Origin: Cytophagales bacterium
GTDB lineage: Bacteria > Bacteroidota > Bacteroidia > Cytophagales > Cyclobacteriaceae
Length of the DNA: 64,000 nucleotides
Direction of reading: 5' to 3'
Assembly (NCBI GenBank): GCA_017303795.1
Contig: JAFLBR010000003.1
Location: forward strand, 62,001-126,000
Below the pieces are notes generated by a model. The model saw nothing but the letters and a program-made list of their open reading frames with translations, was not told the DNA's origin and did no database searches. Position 1 is the first letter of the stretch, and each line of letters opens with the position of its first letter. Shown piece by piece: positions 16,797-22,034 of the stretch. Made by a program: the position numbers and the translations under genes.

Positions 16797-17343
16797 ATGT
16801 TAACCTGAGTCGGTTCCATACAAACATAAATGCAGGTCTTATCAGCTTGTGAATCACCACAGCACCCAACATAAGTATGGAGCCAATAAAGATCGGAAGC
16901 ACTCCACCAAAGGTGTATACCAAACCCAAAATAAATCCGAGTAAATACTCCGATCTATAAACCGGAAAGAATAACGCCAACGCAAAAACCGATAGCATCA
17001 TATAACCGGGTAAACCCGATACGCGGAGGGCGAAGGAGACAGACAATAAAATCGCAAACAATAGAGCTGCAAAAAACGGAAACCAGACATTTTGGGGTAT
17101 CTCAGTTACCGGATTGGTTGCTTCGTGTGTCAGCCGCTTTTGAATCCTGAACGCAAGAAACCAGGTTAACACCGGAATCAAAATTCCGCCCCACCAATTA
17201 GAAAAAGATGGCAAATCTTCACGAGCTAGTAAATGATGACTGGGCACACCGCCATGAAAATAATCCCAGACTAATAAACTCCATACAAAAAGGGTTGCAA
17301 CAAGTGTAACGTAGATTCGGGCTTTAAAAAGTTTGTTGGTCAT
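16795..17343 (-). CDS. Membrane protein of unknown function
   Basis: A 182-residue protein with about five membrane helices (around residues 10-27, 48-66, 86-105, 112-128 and 140-165) and a conserved-looking extracytoplasmic loop (YFHGGVPSHHLLAREDLPSFSNWWGG). I do not recognise a family. It stands alone on the minus strand between the M28 gene and leuS. Its stop overlaps the T-tract of the M28 terminator. The start region is divergent from leuS, whose promoter lies about 85 bases away. Confidence 0.65.
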   Translation of the reverse strand: MTNKLFKARIYVTLVATLFVWSLLVWDYFHGGVPSHHLLAREDLPSFSNWWGGILIPVLTWFLAFRIQKRLTHEATNPVTEIPQNVWFPFFAALLFAILLSVSFALRVSGLPGYMMLSVFALALFFPVYRSEYLLGFILGLVYTFGGVLPIFIGSILMLGAVVIHKLIRPAFMFVWNRLRLT

Positions 17344-17426
17344 TTGGGTGGGGTTGCCCTTACAGACGGAGCCGAAGGCTTACATGTTGCGTTTCCAACA
17401 ATCTTATCTTCATAAAAACCTATTTA

Positions 17427-17457
17427 TTGTCATTTGGCGCAAGCCTGTGTACTTTTG
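17427..17457 (+). promoter_or_regulatory. leuS promoter, TTG-N20-TACTTTTG
   Basis: TTG at 17427-17429 and TACTTTTG at 17450-17457, with 20 bases between, match the Bacteroidota sigma factor consensus. Transcription from about 17464 would give a 22-base leader to the ATG at 17486 and excludes the longer upstream start at 17333. Confidence 0.72.
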
Positions 17458-17485
17458 TGGTTCACATTTTACAGAACTGCTCAAA

Positions 17486-20400
17486 ATGGCCGAATACACG
17501 AAAGACGAGATCAAACGCATTGAAGAAAAGTGGCGTAAGACCTGGATTGAAAAGGAAGTTTACAAGGTTTCTAATAATACCGAAAAGCCTAAGTGTTATG
17601 TGCTGGATATGTTTCCCTACCCGTCCGGGGCGGGGCTGCACGTTGGCCACCCGCTGGGTTACATCGCGTCTGATATTTATGCCCGCTTTAAGCGCATAAA
17701 AGGATTCAACGTATTGCACCCTATGGGCTTCGATGCCTTTGGCCTTCCGGCAGAACAATATGCATTAGAGCATGGCATTCATCCCGCTGTCTCTACAGCC
17801 GATAACATCAACAACTTTAAGCGGCAGTTAGGCAACATTGGTTTTTCATATGACTGGAGTCGCGAGGTGCAAACCTGCGATCCGAAATATTACCGTTGGA
17901 CGCAGTGGATCTTCTTACAGATTTTCGATAGCTGGTTCAATCGCAACAAACAAAAAGCCGAACGGATAAGTGAGTTGGTTAAGATTTTTGAATCGGAGGG
18001 AAACAAGAATCACCCGGTTCCAAATCCGAAATCCGAAATCCGAAATTTTGAATCCTCTGAGTGGAAATCGTACCCTGAAAAAGAGCAGCAAAGTATTCTG
18101 ATGGAATACAGGTTAGCCTACCTGGCTTACACCGATGTAAACTGGTGCGAAGCGTTAGGTACCGTGCTGGCTAACGATGAAGTAATAAATGGTGTAAGCT
18201 ATCGCGGGGGATTCCCAGTAATAAAAAAACAAATGCGCCAGTGGAGTTTGCGCATTACCGAATATGCCGATCGTTTACTAAAAGGCTTGGATGAAATCGA
18301 CTTTAGTGAGTCGATGAAAGAGATACAAAAAAATTGGATTGGCAAGAGTGTGGGGGCTGAGTTGGAGTTTGGCCTCACCCCCCAACCCCCTCTCCGGGGG
18401 AGAGGGGGAGAAGGCTCCGAAAAAGGTTTTGAGACTTCGGAAAAAAAATATTGGAAATACCTCAAAGAATTCTCAAAAGAAAATAGGCAAAACCCAACAG
18501 CAGAAGAATCCATTATATGGGAAGAATTGCGAAACAATAAGTTAGGGTATAAAATTAGAAGACAGCATGCCATCGGTGTTTTCATAGGTGATTTTGTTTG
18601 CCTTGATCGCAGGACGGTTATTGAAATTGATGGTGATTATCATTTAACAAATAAAGAATTTGATCAGGCCAGAACAGAGTTTTTAAACTCAGAAGGCTTT
18701 ACTGTTATCCGATTTACAAATGATGATGTTAAGCAAGACTTAACGAAAGTTCTAACTTCCATTAAAGAATCGTTAGCCAAATCTCCATCCATTAAAGAGT
18801 CTTCCCCCCTCTCCCCCGGAGAGGGCCGGGGTGAGGCGATAAGAGTCTTCACCACCCGCCCCGACACCATCTTCGGAGTGGACCTCATGGTGATTGCGCC
18901 TGAACACGAGCTTGTTAAAAAGATTACTACTCCCGAACAAACAGAAGAGATTGAAAAATATCTGAAGTATGTAGAGAGTCGCTCAGAAGTGGATCGCATG
19001 GCGGAGGTAAAAAAGATTACCGGTGCGTTTACGGGTGCTTACGCGATCAATCCGTTTAACGGAAAACAAATTCCGGTGTGGATTAGCGAGTATGTTTTGG
19101 CCGGTTATGGAACGGGTGCCATCATGGCTGTGCCGTGTGGCGATGAACGCGATCATAAATTTGCCAAACACTTTAATATTCCCATCACCAACATTATTGG
19201 TTCGCATTACAATGGCAACGAAGCCAACCCCACCAAAGAAGCGATTCTCGAAAACTCAGGCTTTCTGAATGGTATGATAATGCACAAAGCCATTGATGTG
19301 GCTATTGCCGAAATTGAAAAACTCGGCATCGGCAAACGACAGGTGAATTACAAAATGCGCGATGCCGGTTGGAGCCGACAGCGATATTGGGGCGAACCCT
19401 TTCCGGTTTATTTTAAAGACGATGTGCCCTATGCGATGAACGAAAGTGAGTTGCCATTGGAGCTTCCGCCTTCCAACAACTTTAAACCTTCTGGTAATGG
19501 TGAAGGCCCATTGGCTAACCTGCCCGACTGGATAAATTTTGCTGCCGATAAAAAACGCGATAGCAACACCATGCCTACACATGCCGGTGCTGCGTGGTAT
19601 TTTTTACGATACATGGATCCGCACAACACCCACGCTTTCGCGGATAAGAAAGCTTTGGACTATTGGAACCAGGTTGATGTTTACATTGGCGGCTCGGAAC
19701 ATGCTGTTGCACATTTGTTGTACTCACGCCTGTGGACCAAAGTACTGCACGACTTAGGCTACCTGAATTTTGATGAGCCTTTTAAGAAGTTAATTAACCA
19801 AGGGAAGATTACGGGAGAAACAAAGTTTGTTTATCGTCTTCCAAAGGAACATTTTGTATATGAAATCTCTGCTGGGTATTCTGCAACTTATCCTAGTGTT
19901 TTAGGGGAAAAGTTGGATCAAATAACACCAAGTTTATTTGTATCAGGTAGCCTTGCTGAAAAAATAATTAATAAAACAGCTACGGATTCTGACTACGCCT
20001 ACATTCAGTCAGAGTTAACGAAAATAAATACCAATCTAAATAATCAAAAATATCCTGGTGCATATTTTCAGTTGCGCATTAATGAAGATATTTCTGTTCA
20101 AAAATTGCGTGTTGATATTAGTCTTGTGAAAGGTAATGAATTAGATACTGAAGGATTAAAGAAATGGAAACCTGATTTTGCTGGAGCTGAATTCATTCTT
20201 GATCAAGAGGATAAAAAATATTACACTGATAGCGCCATTGAAAAAATGAGCAAAACCTACTATAATGTAGTTAATCCTGACTCAATTATTGAAGATTACG
20301 GAGCCGACACCCTACGCATGTACGAAATGTTCCTCGGTCCGCTGGAGGCCTCCAAACCGTGGAGCACACAAGGCATTGATGGCGTGTTTAAATTTTTAAG

Positions 20401-20926
20401 ACGCTTCTGGAATTTGTTTCATGACAACACCGGTAAGTTAAAAATCACTGATGCCGAACCTACCCGCGAAGAATTAAAAGTACTTCACAAAACATTAAAG
20501 AAAGTAGAATACGACATCGAAAACTTCTCGTTCAATACTTCCGTGAGTGAGTTTATGATTTGTGCCAATGAACTTTCGTCACTCAAGTGCAACAAACGCG
20601 CAGTGTTAGAGCCATTGGTCATTGCCCTCTCGCCTTTTGCCCCACACATCGCAGAAGAGTTGTGGTCGTTACTCGGTCATGCTGATACGGTGCTTAACGC
20701 ATCCTTCCCGAACTACGATGAGCAATACTTAACCGAAAGTTCACACAACTACCCTATCTCCATCAATGGCAAAGTTCGCGCGCAAATGAATTTTGCGTTG
20801 GATGTATCGAAAGAAGAAATTGAAAAAGTTGTGCTTGCTTCTGAGATTGTGCTGAAGTGGAGCGAAGGCAAACCACCTAAGAAGGTGATTGTAGTACCGG
20901 GTAAGATTGTGAATGTGGTGTTCTAG
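17486..20926 (+). CDS. leuS: Leucyl-tRNA synthetase with in-frame DUF559 endonuclease insert
   Basis: This class I synthetase charges tRNA-Leu. The start at 17486 (MAEYTKDEIKRIEEKW) fits the family and the promoter. Visible motifs: HVGH at residues 52-55, TTRPDT of the CP1 editing domain at 456-461, KMSKT at 920-924 (the usual KMSKS with a Thr), and a C-terminal anticodon-binding region. At 1146 residues it is about 220 longer than the roughly 925 usual in Bacteroidota. The surplus is a DUF559 nuclease domain at 296-451, in the loop between the first two strands of CP1, plus an enlarged, AT-rich segment at about 795-870 before KMSK. Near residues 178-192 the frame also contains a simple repeat. 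The frame is intact throughout, and all synthetic and editing motifs seen remain, so it is probably functional as one long polypeptide. Confidence 0.95.
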   Translation: MAEYTKDEIKRIEEKWRKTWIEKEVYKVSNNTEKPKCYVLDMFPYPSGAGLHVGHPLGYIASDIYARFKRIKGFNVLHPMGFDAFGLPAEQYALEHGIHPAVSTADNINNFKRQLGNIGFSYDWSREVQTCDPKYYRWTQWIFLQIFDSWFNRNKQKAERISELVKIFESEGNKNHPVPNPKSEIRNFESSEWKSYPEKEQQSILMEYRLAYLAYTDVNWCEALGTVLANDEVINGVSYRGGFPVIKKQMRQWSLRITEYADRLLKGLDEIDFSESMKEIQKNWIGKSVGAELEFGLTPQPPLRGRGGEGSEKGFETSEKKYWKYLKEFSKENRQNPTAEESIIWEELRNNKLGYKIRRQHAIGVFIGDFVCLDRRTVIEIDGDYHLTNKEFDQARTEFLNSEGFTVIRFTNDDVKQDLTKVLTSIKESLAKSPSIKESSPLSPGEGRGEAIRVFTTRPDTIFGVDLMVIAPEHELVKKITTPEQTEEIEKYLKYVESRSEVDRMAEVKKITGAFTGAYAINPFNGKQIPVWISEYVLAGYGTGAIMAVPCGDERDHKFAKHFNIPITNIIGSHYNGNEANPTKEAILENSGFLNGMIMHKAIDVAIAEIEKLGIGKRQVNYKMRDAGWSRQRYWGEPFPVYFKDDVPYAMNESELPLELPPSNNFKPSGNGEGPLANLPDWINFAADKKRDSNTMPTHAGAAWYFLRYMDPHNTHAFADKKALDYWNQVDVYIGGSEHAVAHLLYSRLWTKVLHDLGYLNFDEPFKKLINQGKITGETKFVYRLPKEHFVYEISAGYSATYPSVLGEKLDQITPSLFVSGSLAEKIINKTATDSDYAYIQSELTKINTNLNNQKYPGAYFQLRINEDISVQKLRVDISLVKGNELDTEGLKKWKPDFAGAEFILDQEDKKYYTDSAIEKMSKTYYNVVNPDSIIEDYGADTLRMYEMFLGPLEASKPWSTQGIDGVFKFLRRFWNLFHDNTGKLKITDAEPTREELKVLHKTLKKVEYDIENFSFNTSVSEFMICANELSSLKCNKRAVLEPLVIALSPFAPHIAEELWSLLGHADTVLNASFPNYDEQYLTESSHNYPISINGKVRAQMNFALDVSKEEIEKVVLASEIVLKWSEGKPPKKVIVVPGKIVNVVF
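18020..18054 (+). repeat. ATCCGAA short tandem repeat inside leuS
   Basis: Three near-copies of the heptamer AAATCCG/ATCCGAA are followed by TTTTGAATC, in frame within leuS (residues about 178-190, PNPKSEIRNFES). The 19-mer AAATCCGAAATTTTGAATC at 18036-18054 recurs exactly at 22052-22070, outside any gene. Confidence 0.75.
18371..18838 (+). mobile_element. In-frame DUF559 endonuclease element with GC-rich inverted repeats
   Basis: A 468-base (156-codon) insert in leuS. It encodes a complete DUF559 / Vsr-like PD-(D/E)XK domain: TAEESIIWEELRNNKLGYK, RRQHAIGVFIGDF, then VIEIDGDYH and FTVIRFTNDDV. The expected active-site residues Asp369, Glu380, Asp382 and His386 (leuS numbering) are present. 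Both ends are GC-rich inverted repeats of about 40 bases: 18372-18413 reads CCTCACCCC...CTCTCC...GGAGAGGGGG...GAAG, and the complement of 18800-18838 reads nearly the same. Each repeat has its own hairpin (18386-18395 with 18399-18408; 18807-18814 with 18818-18825). In the leuS frame the repeats encode Pro/Gly linkers. No intein splice-junction residues are seen. Confidence 0.85.
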
Positions 20927-20931
20927 GTTGC

Positions 20932-20969
20932 CGGTTTCCCGTTACTGGTTTGCCGGTAACGGGAAACCG
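20932..20969. terminator. Strong hairpin downstream of leuS
   Basis: CGGTTTCCCGTTAC at 20932-20945 pairs with 20956-20969, extendable inward to a TTTG loop. It begins six bases after the leuS stop. No T-run follows, so it may stabilise the mRNA end or act as a factor-assisted terminator. Confidence 0.55.
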
Positions 20970-21035
20970 AAAACTAACACACATTAGTCTTTCCGTAACA
21001 TTTCCTTAATTTTAGAGCGCACTTAACACACTTCT

Positions 21036-22034
21036 ATGCGCCACTCTAAAATTGTAGGCCTCGGGCATCACGTACCCGAAACGGTAATCACCAACGCTCA
21101 TCTTTCTACTATAATGGATACCACCGATGAGTGGATTGTGGAGCGCACGGGCATAAAAGAAAGACGGTGGATCGATCCCGCCAAGGACACGGTAGCCAAC
21201 ATGGCCGCCAAAGCCACACGACTTGCCTTGCAGCGCGCGAACCTCACTGAAAAAGACATAGACTTTATTGTTTTCGCTACCATCACACCCGATTATTTTT
21301 TTCCCGGCTCCGGTGTTTTGCTGCAACGTGAATTGGGTTTGGAAAGCATTGGCGCATTAGACATCCGCAATGCCTGTTCGGGTTTTATCTATGCATTATC
21401 CGTTGCCGATCAGTTTATTAAATCGGGCATGTATAAAACCATTTTGGTAGTCGGTGCCGAAATTCAGTCCACCGCTATTGATGCAACCACACGTGGAAGA
21501 AATACCGCAGTTATTTTTGCTGATGGTGCCGGAGCTGCTATTCTGCAACCATCTGATAAGCCCGGTATTCTTTCCACACATTTACATTCCGATGGCCGGT
21601 TTGCCGAAGAACTTTATGTGCGCGATCCGGGTAGCAGCAGGCCACGGGAAGAGCGGCAACCCGAGCAGATTTTAGATACTACTCACTTTAAAGTGGTAAT
21701 GAATGGTAGCCAGGTTTTTAAACATGCCGTAGTCCGGTTTATGGAAGTGATAAACGAAGCCCTCACCGCCAACGGAATAAAAAAAGAAGAGATTGATTTG
21801 TTGGTACCGCATCAGGCCAACCTTCGCATCAGCCAATTTATTCAACAGAAAATGGAATTGCCCGACTCGAAAGTTTATAACAACATTATGCGTTATGGAA
21901 ATACAACGGCTGCGTCTATTCCCATTGCCATGAGCGAAGCCTGGGCAGAAGGTAAAATCAAAGAAAATGACGTTATTTGTTTAGCTGCCTTTGGAAGCGG
22001 GTTTACGTGGGCATCTGCTTTGATTCGTTGGTAA
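21036..22034 (+). CDS. fabH: Beta-ketoacyl-ACP synthase III
   Basis: A 332-residue cytoplasmic thiolase-fold enzyme that condenses acetyl-CoA (or a branched acyl-CoA) with malonyl-ACP to start fatty acid synthesis. The catalytic triad is Cys114 (DIRNACSGF), His259 (VPHQANLRI) and Asn289 (RYGNTTAASIP). Length and the N-terminal DTTDEWIVERTGIKERR are standard. It is followed on the same strand by a small hypothetical gene and the GntP-RidA-PLP enzyme run, with no functional tie apparent. Some Bacteroidota have several fabH copies, so whether this is the main one cannot be said. Confidence 0.93.
   Translation: MRHSKIVGLGHHVPETVITNAHLSTIMDTTDEWIVERTGIKERRWIDPAKDTVANMAAKATRLALQRANLTEKDIDFIVFATITPDYFFPGSGVLLQRELGLESIGALDIRNACSGFIYALSVADQFIKSGMYKTILVVGAEIQSTAIDATTRGRNTAVIFADGAGAAILQPSDKPGILSTHLHSDGRFAEELYVRDPGSSRPREERQPEQILDTTHFKVVMNGSQVFKHAVVRFMEVINEALTANGIKKEEIDLLVPHQANLRISQFIQQKMELPDSKVYNNIMRYGNTTAASIPIAMSEAWAEGKIKENDVICLAAFGSGFTWASALIRW

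Follow-up and report, generated by a model that had tools for sequence, protein, structure and literature searches.

The window analysed here, a stretch of 64,000 nt (G000:C18:62001-126000), contains a leuS gene, coding for leucyl-tRNA synthetase, whose product carries an additional nuclease domain (Table 1). The gene lies within an uninterrupted open frame spanning 17333-20926, and its product scores as leuS_bact at 1e-273 in NCBIfam. Between ...GAELEF and IRVFTTRPDT of LeuS, 156 extra in-frame codons are present, in which a Pfam search identified a DUF559 domain (PF04480; 2.4e-31, 108.3 bits against a cut-off of 20.6) flanked by LeuS domains. A first-pass annotation of the window had proposed an in-frame DUF559 insert of 156 codons before TTRPDT, and both the frame reading and the Pfam match confirm it. 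No in-frame stop occurs across the insert, an Rfam scan of 17000-21200 gave no match, and no intein domain was found among the Pfam matches of this LeuS. The DUF559 domain itself contains no methionine.

Table 1. Features of the window leuS gene and of the element inserted in it
Feature	Position	Strand	Remarks
leuS (leucyl-tRNA synthetase) with insert	17486..20926	+	1146 aa; ATG at 17486 taken as start
Whole in-frame element, with matching ends GCCTCACCCC / GGGGTGAGGC	18372..18837	+	read from the sequence
Left terminal unit: tag GCCTCACCCC and palindrome	18372..18408	+	peptide LTPQPPLRGRGG
Left palindrome CCCTCTCCGGGGGAGAGGG	18388..18406	.	
DUF559 nuclease domain (Vsr/EDxHD-like)	18458..18775	+	Pfam; model pLDDT 88; fold search
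Right terminal unit: palindrome and GGGGTGAGGC, inverted copy of the left unit	18805..18837	-	peptide PLSPGEGRGEA
Right palindrome CCCTCTCCCCCGGAGAGGG	18807..18825	.	

The inverted arms at the two edges of the insert (18388-18408 and 18805-18825) are 21 nt long and 100% complementary, with a palindrome inside each, in agreement with the inverted repeats and internal palindromes that had been noticed there before. Since the outermost GCCTCACCCC (18372-18381) is complementary to GGGGTGAGGC (18828-18837), the element was delimited at these two tags, which narrows the previously proposed span of 18371-18838 to 18372-18837. Both ends, read in frame, encode the peptides given in Table 1; the first-pass annotation had described them as Pro/Gly linkers. 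Its further statement that the left repeat is free of stops in all forward frames was looked at by eye only and is given no weight here. Searching the window with the palindrome pattern (up to three mismatches) returned four matches, i.e. the two sites on both strands, against 0.01 expected. Both ends of the window element recur exactly at loci L142 and L143; at L144 the right end has one mismatch, and at L145 and L146 the left end alone is clear. Elsewhere in the gene, at 18022-18046, the leuS stretch AAATCCGAAATCCGAAATCCGAAAT, which forms part of NPKSEIRNF, has the look of a short repeat, but a segment of similar length is present there in relatives. A model of full-length LeuS, built from a six-row alignment, reached a mean pLDDT of 35, and the placement of the insert on the LeuS structure is therefore based on sequence alone.

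A profile of 33 domains matches PDB entries 3hrl (5.6e-35) and 3r3p (1.1e-6); 3r3p is the catalytic domain of I-Bth0305I, a homing endonuclease. When the model of the window domain (pLDDT 88) was used in a Foldseek search, 3hrl and 3r3p again came first and Vsr lower, at E 0.06. The E-x-D..H..D residues of DUF559 presumably correspond to EDxHD. By its fold and its acidic/histidine motif, the insert nuclease is EDxHD/Vsr-like. PADLOC gave only a weak match, to AbiO (4.6e-4).

Matches to leuS were obtained in 113 of the 118 sampled genomes of the family, and frames longer than 1030 aa occur, among the matches listed, only in the window genome (1203 aa) and in G019 (1078 aa). Two genomes of the same genus, G064 and G144, have LeuS proteins 91% and 83% identical over 287 aa, and both lack the insert. 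At the window's insertion point (site A), 30 loci were read: two contain DUF559 (the window and G088), one contains another insert, 25 have a short turn and two are unreadable. Close relatives without the insert are therefore found, whereas the first-pass annotation had allowed that all of them might carry it. Long leuS frames are no proof of DUF559, because the domain was absent from five (G081, G017, G094, G056 and G115) of 13 leuS loci chosen for long frames and present in the other eight. At the leuS locus of G073 (L048), a longer insert of other make-up (EEREEREEGRKEEGEK...) occupies the site-A turn without DUF559.

A GTDB scan with the insert protein, which detects close relatives only, found five relatives with 59-80% identity, all at the same leuS site and all Cytophagales or Cyclobacteriaceae MAGs. 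Because five other genome records, one of them titled a chromosome, share both the insert and its position, an assembly error, also raised in the first-pass annotation, is unlikely. Nor was a second intact leuS, which might have marked this copy as a pseudogene, found among the matches listed for the window genome; its other match, a weak one (2e-4), is in a different frame. In the LeuS tree the carriers are scattered, with three changes, and a single carrier clade was weakly rejected (AU 0.032). The six leuS inserts of the window group look compatible with the host tree, as judged by eye. In pairs with finite dS, host LeuS has an omega of 0.035-0.069; only two of 15 pairs gave a finite dS in the nuclease domain, with omega 0.050 and 0.064.

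The window insert belongs to a family spread over many host genes. DUF559 is present in at least 222 of 395 sampled Bacteroidota genomes, and many of the matches listed lie in frames of 800-1500 aa; long-frame loci were fetched on purpose, with 60 short-frame loci added as a counterweight. In leuS there are two insert sites, site A before TTRPDT and site B before STMPGWAGSSWY. DUF559 also lies in frame in metH, before ILMATVKGDVHDIG, which we take to be between the cap and the cobalamin-binding parts, and in recG, between DEQHRFGV and TATPIPR. Further in-frame hosts are an IcmF-type acyl-CoA mutase, hsdR, restriction methylases and UvrD-like helicases. NCBIfam named the scanned representatives methionine synthase, RecG, IcmF, HsdR, ValS, HemF and HisF; L085, an hsdM by eye, received no name at 1e-30. 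In Pfam, L091 and L093 have UvrD domains, and L084 matches Eco57I. A contig from a viral collection (L233:1-3177), probably host DNA beside a provirus, ends in a valS gene whose DUF559 insert precedes TTRPET, which corresponds in motif position to site A of leuS, and has a 30-nt perfect inverted repeat. In four genomes belonging to a single family, DUF559 is placed before hemF (L103, L107, L110 and L114; HemF confirmed for L103), and in L098 it is placed before hisF (HisF confirmed). Since the domain precedes the enzyme in these cases, they may be start-site readings and not insertions.

A tree was built from 137 DUF559 domains, 61 fused and 76 stand-alone, over 129 columns, leaving out the duplicate L186 and one fragment of L219; its bootstrap had not settled. 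It contains an in-gene clade of 41 rows (100/97) with 38 of the 61 fused and three of the 76 stand-alone domains. The remaining 73 stand-alone and 23 fused domains (restriction-modification, hemF, hisF and a few others) fall outside this clade, which can therefore not be defined by fusion alone. Several groupings show that host genes switch inside the in-gene clade. The site-B leuS insert of G019, from the window's own family, groups with six site-A inserts including that of the window (100/96). Inserts of metH are joined by the site-B leuS insert of G085 (99/93), and site-A leuS inserts by one from a UvrD-like helicase (100/99). In a tree of 78 rows the domains cluster by host gene, with 25 changes as compared with 54 after shuffling. 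That tree also placed mcm with site-B leuS inserts (98/99), a grouping that was not recovered with 137 rows and was dropped. The D..E-x-D motif is kept in all 38 fused clade members and in 73 of 75 stand-alone domains. Between 30 codons before the domain and the first motif, an ATG is found in 21 of the 38 clade members as compared with 74 of 75 stand-alone domains; as only 17 of the 38 lack one, loss of the start codon was rejected as a general rule.

Among the matches listed for the genus of G228, recG frames of at least 844 aa occur in seven of 150 genomes, and all seven are filled with DUF559 at one codon position. The recG site was read in 33 of these genomes, i.e. the 30 best matches and three more with long frames, and most of the other sites have only two or three residues after KLW.K. 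In G724 (L327) recG contains the left end of the element and a short tail only, an apparent remnant or solo unit. G716 (L332) has a few extra residues at the insert site. A recG host tree of 35 rows (the 30 best matches, three more carriers, G425, and G247 of another genus) shows scattered carriers with seven changes, and placing the eight carriers of the genus in one clade was rejected (AU 4.8e-71). The two data sets reject each other's topology, the insert data that of the host at AU 1.3e-8 and the host data that of the insert at 1e-4.

In three species, G696, G228 and G425, pairwise comparison of the recG insert gave 5, 3 and 4 differences in 456 positions (0.7-1.1%), as against 93, 141 and 135 differences in 1884 positions of recG outside it (4.9-7.5%; p = 7e-5, 1.5e-10 and 3.5e-9). 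The same holds at fourfold sites, with 2/45, 1/47 and 1/45 differences in the insert versus 52/221, 65/219 and 66/219 in the host gene (p = 0.002, 1e-5 and 1.7e-5). Differences in recG are seen at a distance of 10 nt on the left side of the insert and of 5 nt on its right side, which gives the similar segment sharp edges. This low divergence is not the effect of a slowly evolving domain, since in 32 of 36 recG pairs divergence is higher in the insert than in the host gene, the exceptions being these three pairs and G669/G726. By eye, no target-site duplication was seen on comparing filled and empty recG sites. The simplest reading is that the insert has moved recently and separately from its host gene. 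Recombination of recG alleles without any action of the nuclease may be an alternative, but exchange would then have had to take place close to either edge. Same-site occurrence, sporadic presence and horizontal spread, by which homing is recognized, coincide in recG, whose inserts have spread between species like homing elements.

Inverted repeats were sought within 200 nt on each side of the domain, with controls taken 800 nt further out. Removal of short duplicates left 78 loci, of which L055 and L075 were dropped for short flanks. A repeat score of at least 15 was obtained for 41 of the 76 remaining DUF559 loci but for none of 71 controls (control maximum 13); the 35 loci without a strong repeat include the recG copies L109, L111 and L112. 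Left and right ends of the same locus match with a mean of 17.0, compared to 9.4 for other pairs and at most 11.05 for permuted pairs, and the locus's own partner is the single best end match in only 22 of 76 cases. End types vary by locus (CCCTCTCC..GGAGAGGG, CCCCC..GGGGG, CCCTCCCC and others). Genome G030 holds four clade members with similar ends: two are stand-alone, one lies within a helicase gene and another at the 3' end of a gene with a GATase_5 domain.

A search for further copies of the repeats, suggested by the first-pass annotation, showed that the palindrome recurs in the window genome, with 33 sites (up to two mismatches) against one for a reversed control. One solo palindrome lies in frame in an hrpB-like helicase gene (L001:193-230, G000:C1 ~166408-166445; LSPLSLGRGAGGEG); a clean empty-site junction in hrpB was ruled out, as loop length is too variable in six relatives. 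The minus strand at L001:1447-1860 carries another DUF559 gene of the window genome, a stand-alone one, in which a palindrome of this type codes for the C-terminus. At G000:C1:214979-215458 (L005-L009), five exact and one near-exact palindromes are spaced 68-113 nt apart within longer repeats that alternate. The solo palindromes and the hrpB copy suggest that the ends are themselves mobile. Five Y1_Tnp (RAYT-like) loci of this genome (L018-L022) have other palindrome types nearby and none of the window type.

Across the 395 genomes, palindrome number was associated with DUF559 (odds ratio 7, p = 7e-9 at five or more palindromes). Once two palindromes were subtracted per DUF559 copy, the association within families had p = 0.10-0.14, and since it was not significant, palindrome counts were abandoned as proof that DUF559 moves REPs and serve as a lead only. 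After the same subtraction, palindrome richness had an odds ratio of 4.4-5.6 with DUF559 (counted at E<=1e-10) versus 2.4-3.2 with Y1_Tnp (counted at E<=1e-3). All 18 genomes with strong DUF559 and at least ten palindromes after subtraction also contain Y1_Tnp; among genomes without Y1_Tnp, DUF559 had no effect (at least ten palindromes in 0/30 vs 3/94). Five genomes have at least ten palindromes without strong DUF559.

These counts bear on a composite transposon, in which a Y1 transposase of the RAYT type would mobilize the palindromes as REPs, with the nuclease as cargo between two of them. The dispersed solo palindromes, one of them in frame in hrpB, and the dependence of the DUF559 effect on Y1_Tnp speak for such an arrangement. 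However, none of the Y1_Tnp loci in the window genome is accompanied by the element palindrome, palindrome richness follows DUF559 more closely than Y1_Tnp, and untargeted transposition would not give the same-site spread in recG, so that we regard this explanation as unlikely. An unrecognized splicing element, an intein or intron of a novel type, would share the fixed site in conserved genes and the homing-like spread; we consider it extremely improbable, given the absence of intein domain, Rfam match and in-frame stop, termini that consist of repeats, and a short remnant that is tolerated at the recG site.

Two further explanations do without present-day movement or give the domain a use. 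If the inserts were old domain fusions that have been inherited and lost many times, with no present mobility, their clustering by host gene and the apparent agreement of the six window-group inserts with the host tree would follow. For recG this is contradicted by inserts far less diverged than their hosts in three species, at fourfold sites as well, and by the mutual rejection of host and insert topologies; the close grouping of site-A and site-B leuS inserts within one family also argues against it, and we judge it very unlikely. It would be just as surprising if the insert were a domesticated domain that works to the benefit of its host, e.g. in defence or DNA repair, through the expression or location of the host protein. 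Purifying selection on the leuS insert, in the two measurable pairs, would also fit a useful domain, and the motif is intact in all 38 fused clade members; in other groups, the fusion partners of DUF559 are restriction-modification proteins and helicases. Yet the hosts are functionally mixed (LeuS, ValS, MetH, IcmF-type mutase and RecG), presence is sporadic, as reflected by long frames in two of 113 leuS and seven of 150 recG among the matches listed, and the PADLOC match to AbiO is weak.

We therefore favor as the probable explanation that the insert is a homing-type selfish nuclease with inverted REP-like palindromes, translated with its host gene and kept as a permanent domain of the host protein. 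The sequences show the anatomy of the element, its recurrence, the switching of host genes, the same-site spread of recG inserts between species, sporadic presence and the retained motif, all of which fit this reading. The nuclease, made within LeuS (elsewhere within RecG, MetH etc.), would cut an uninterrupted allele of the same gene, and repair of the break would copy the element in. Such break-driven gene conversion would account for the fixed site and its sharp edges as well as for the sporadic carriers and the conflict between trees. The host would survive because the element sits in a turn or linker, is stop-free in the frame used and has ends that read as Pro/Gly/Glu/Ser linkers. Persistence without splicing would thus depend on the choice of sites, probably turns and linkers at the protein surface, and on ends that read as flexible peptide. 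A new gene may occasionally be reached, perhaps via the palindromes, and loss would occur through in-frame deletion. The recG data form the centre of this reading. The window leuS does not show the recG pattern, and for it the same mechanism is suggested by membership in the family; that locus by itself would also fit inheritance with losses. The first-pass annotation is supported overall: its central idea holds, namely that a selfish or domesticated nuclease inserts into genes while leaving them intact and persists as an enzyme domain. The range of host genes and the homing-like spread in recG could not be seen from the window.

The survival of homing elements in conserved genes is generally put down to their splicing out. 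In the available part of one account, inteins and intron-encoded endonucleases are the two recognized homing classes, both self-splicing (PMC7282813). The DUF559 insert resembles inteins in being in frame in conserved genes, at a fixed site, sporadic and spread between species; unlike inteins, it has palindromic ends, and no splicing domain was found in it. With I-Bth0305I (3r3p), it shares the nuclease fold and detectable sequence kinship, and the recG inserts are distributed in a homing-type manner. The I-Bth0305I family is placed among group I intron homing endonucleases in the accessible portion of PMC3943268, whereas the DUF559 nuclease is translated within its host and no intron was found by Rfam or in the continuous frame. 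The WHO elements of yeasts are described, in the same partial source as the two classes, as homing without protein splicing and occasionally moving to other loci; WHO genes adjoin FBA1 and replace its 3' end, whereas the DUF559 nuclease sits inside the reading frame (PMC7282813). Rickettsia palindromic elements, of ~150 bp, are palindromic and in frame in unrelated genes; they encode a conserved peptide, the available excerpt names no nuclease, and their likeness to the DUF559 element is one of description only (PMC10969869). REPs and REPtrons are short palindromes, some of them within genes, that carry GTAG or CGTC tags, and GTAG-tagged REPs often occur with RAYT transposases, as far as the available text of PMC3733652 goes. 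Unlike REPs, the element has units with GCCTCACC-type ends (by eye), DUF559 and no GTAG/CGTC tag; unlike REPtrons, the five Y1_Tnp loci of the window genome are not flanked by its palindrome. Neither DUF559 as a mobile or in-frame element nor the combination of a homing-type nuclease, in-frame residence and palindromic ends was found in the open-licence literature, as far as its accessible text extends.

Opinion could go either way on whether the elements form a third homing class beside introns and inteins, that of a splice-free nuclease at fixed sites of essential genes, lastingly part of the host protein, whose palindromic termini serve both as DNA ends and as linkers, and which may drive a large, ownerless family of REP-like palindromes. 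This can be put directly to the test, since a single recG site exists in filled, empty and remnant form within the same genus. Our results offer a function for DUF559 and a candidate mobilizer beside a dispersed palindrome family. The nuclease seems to home while staying in the protein, and this would be a way, open to testing, for enzymes to acquire entire domains.
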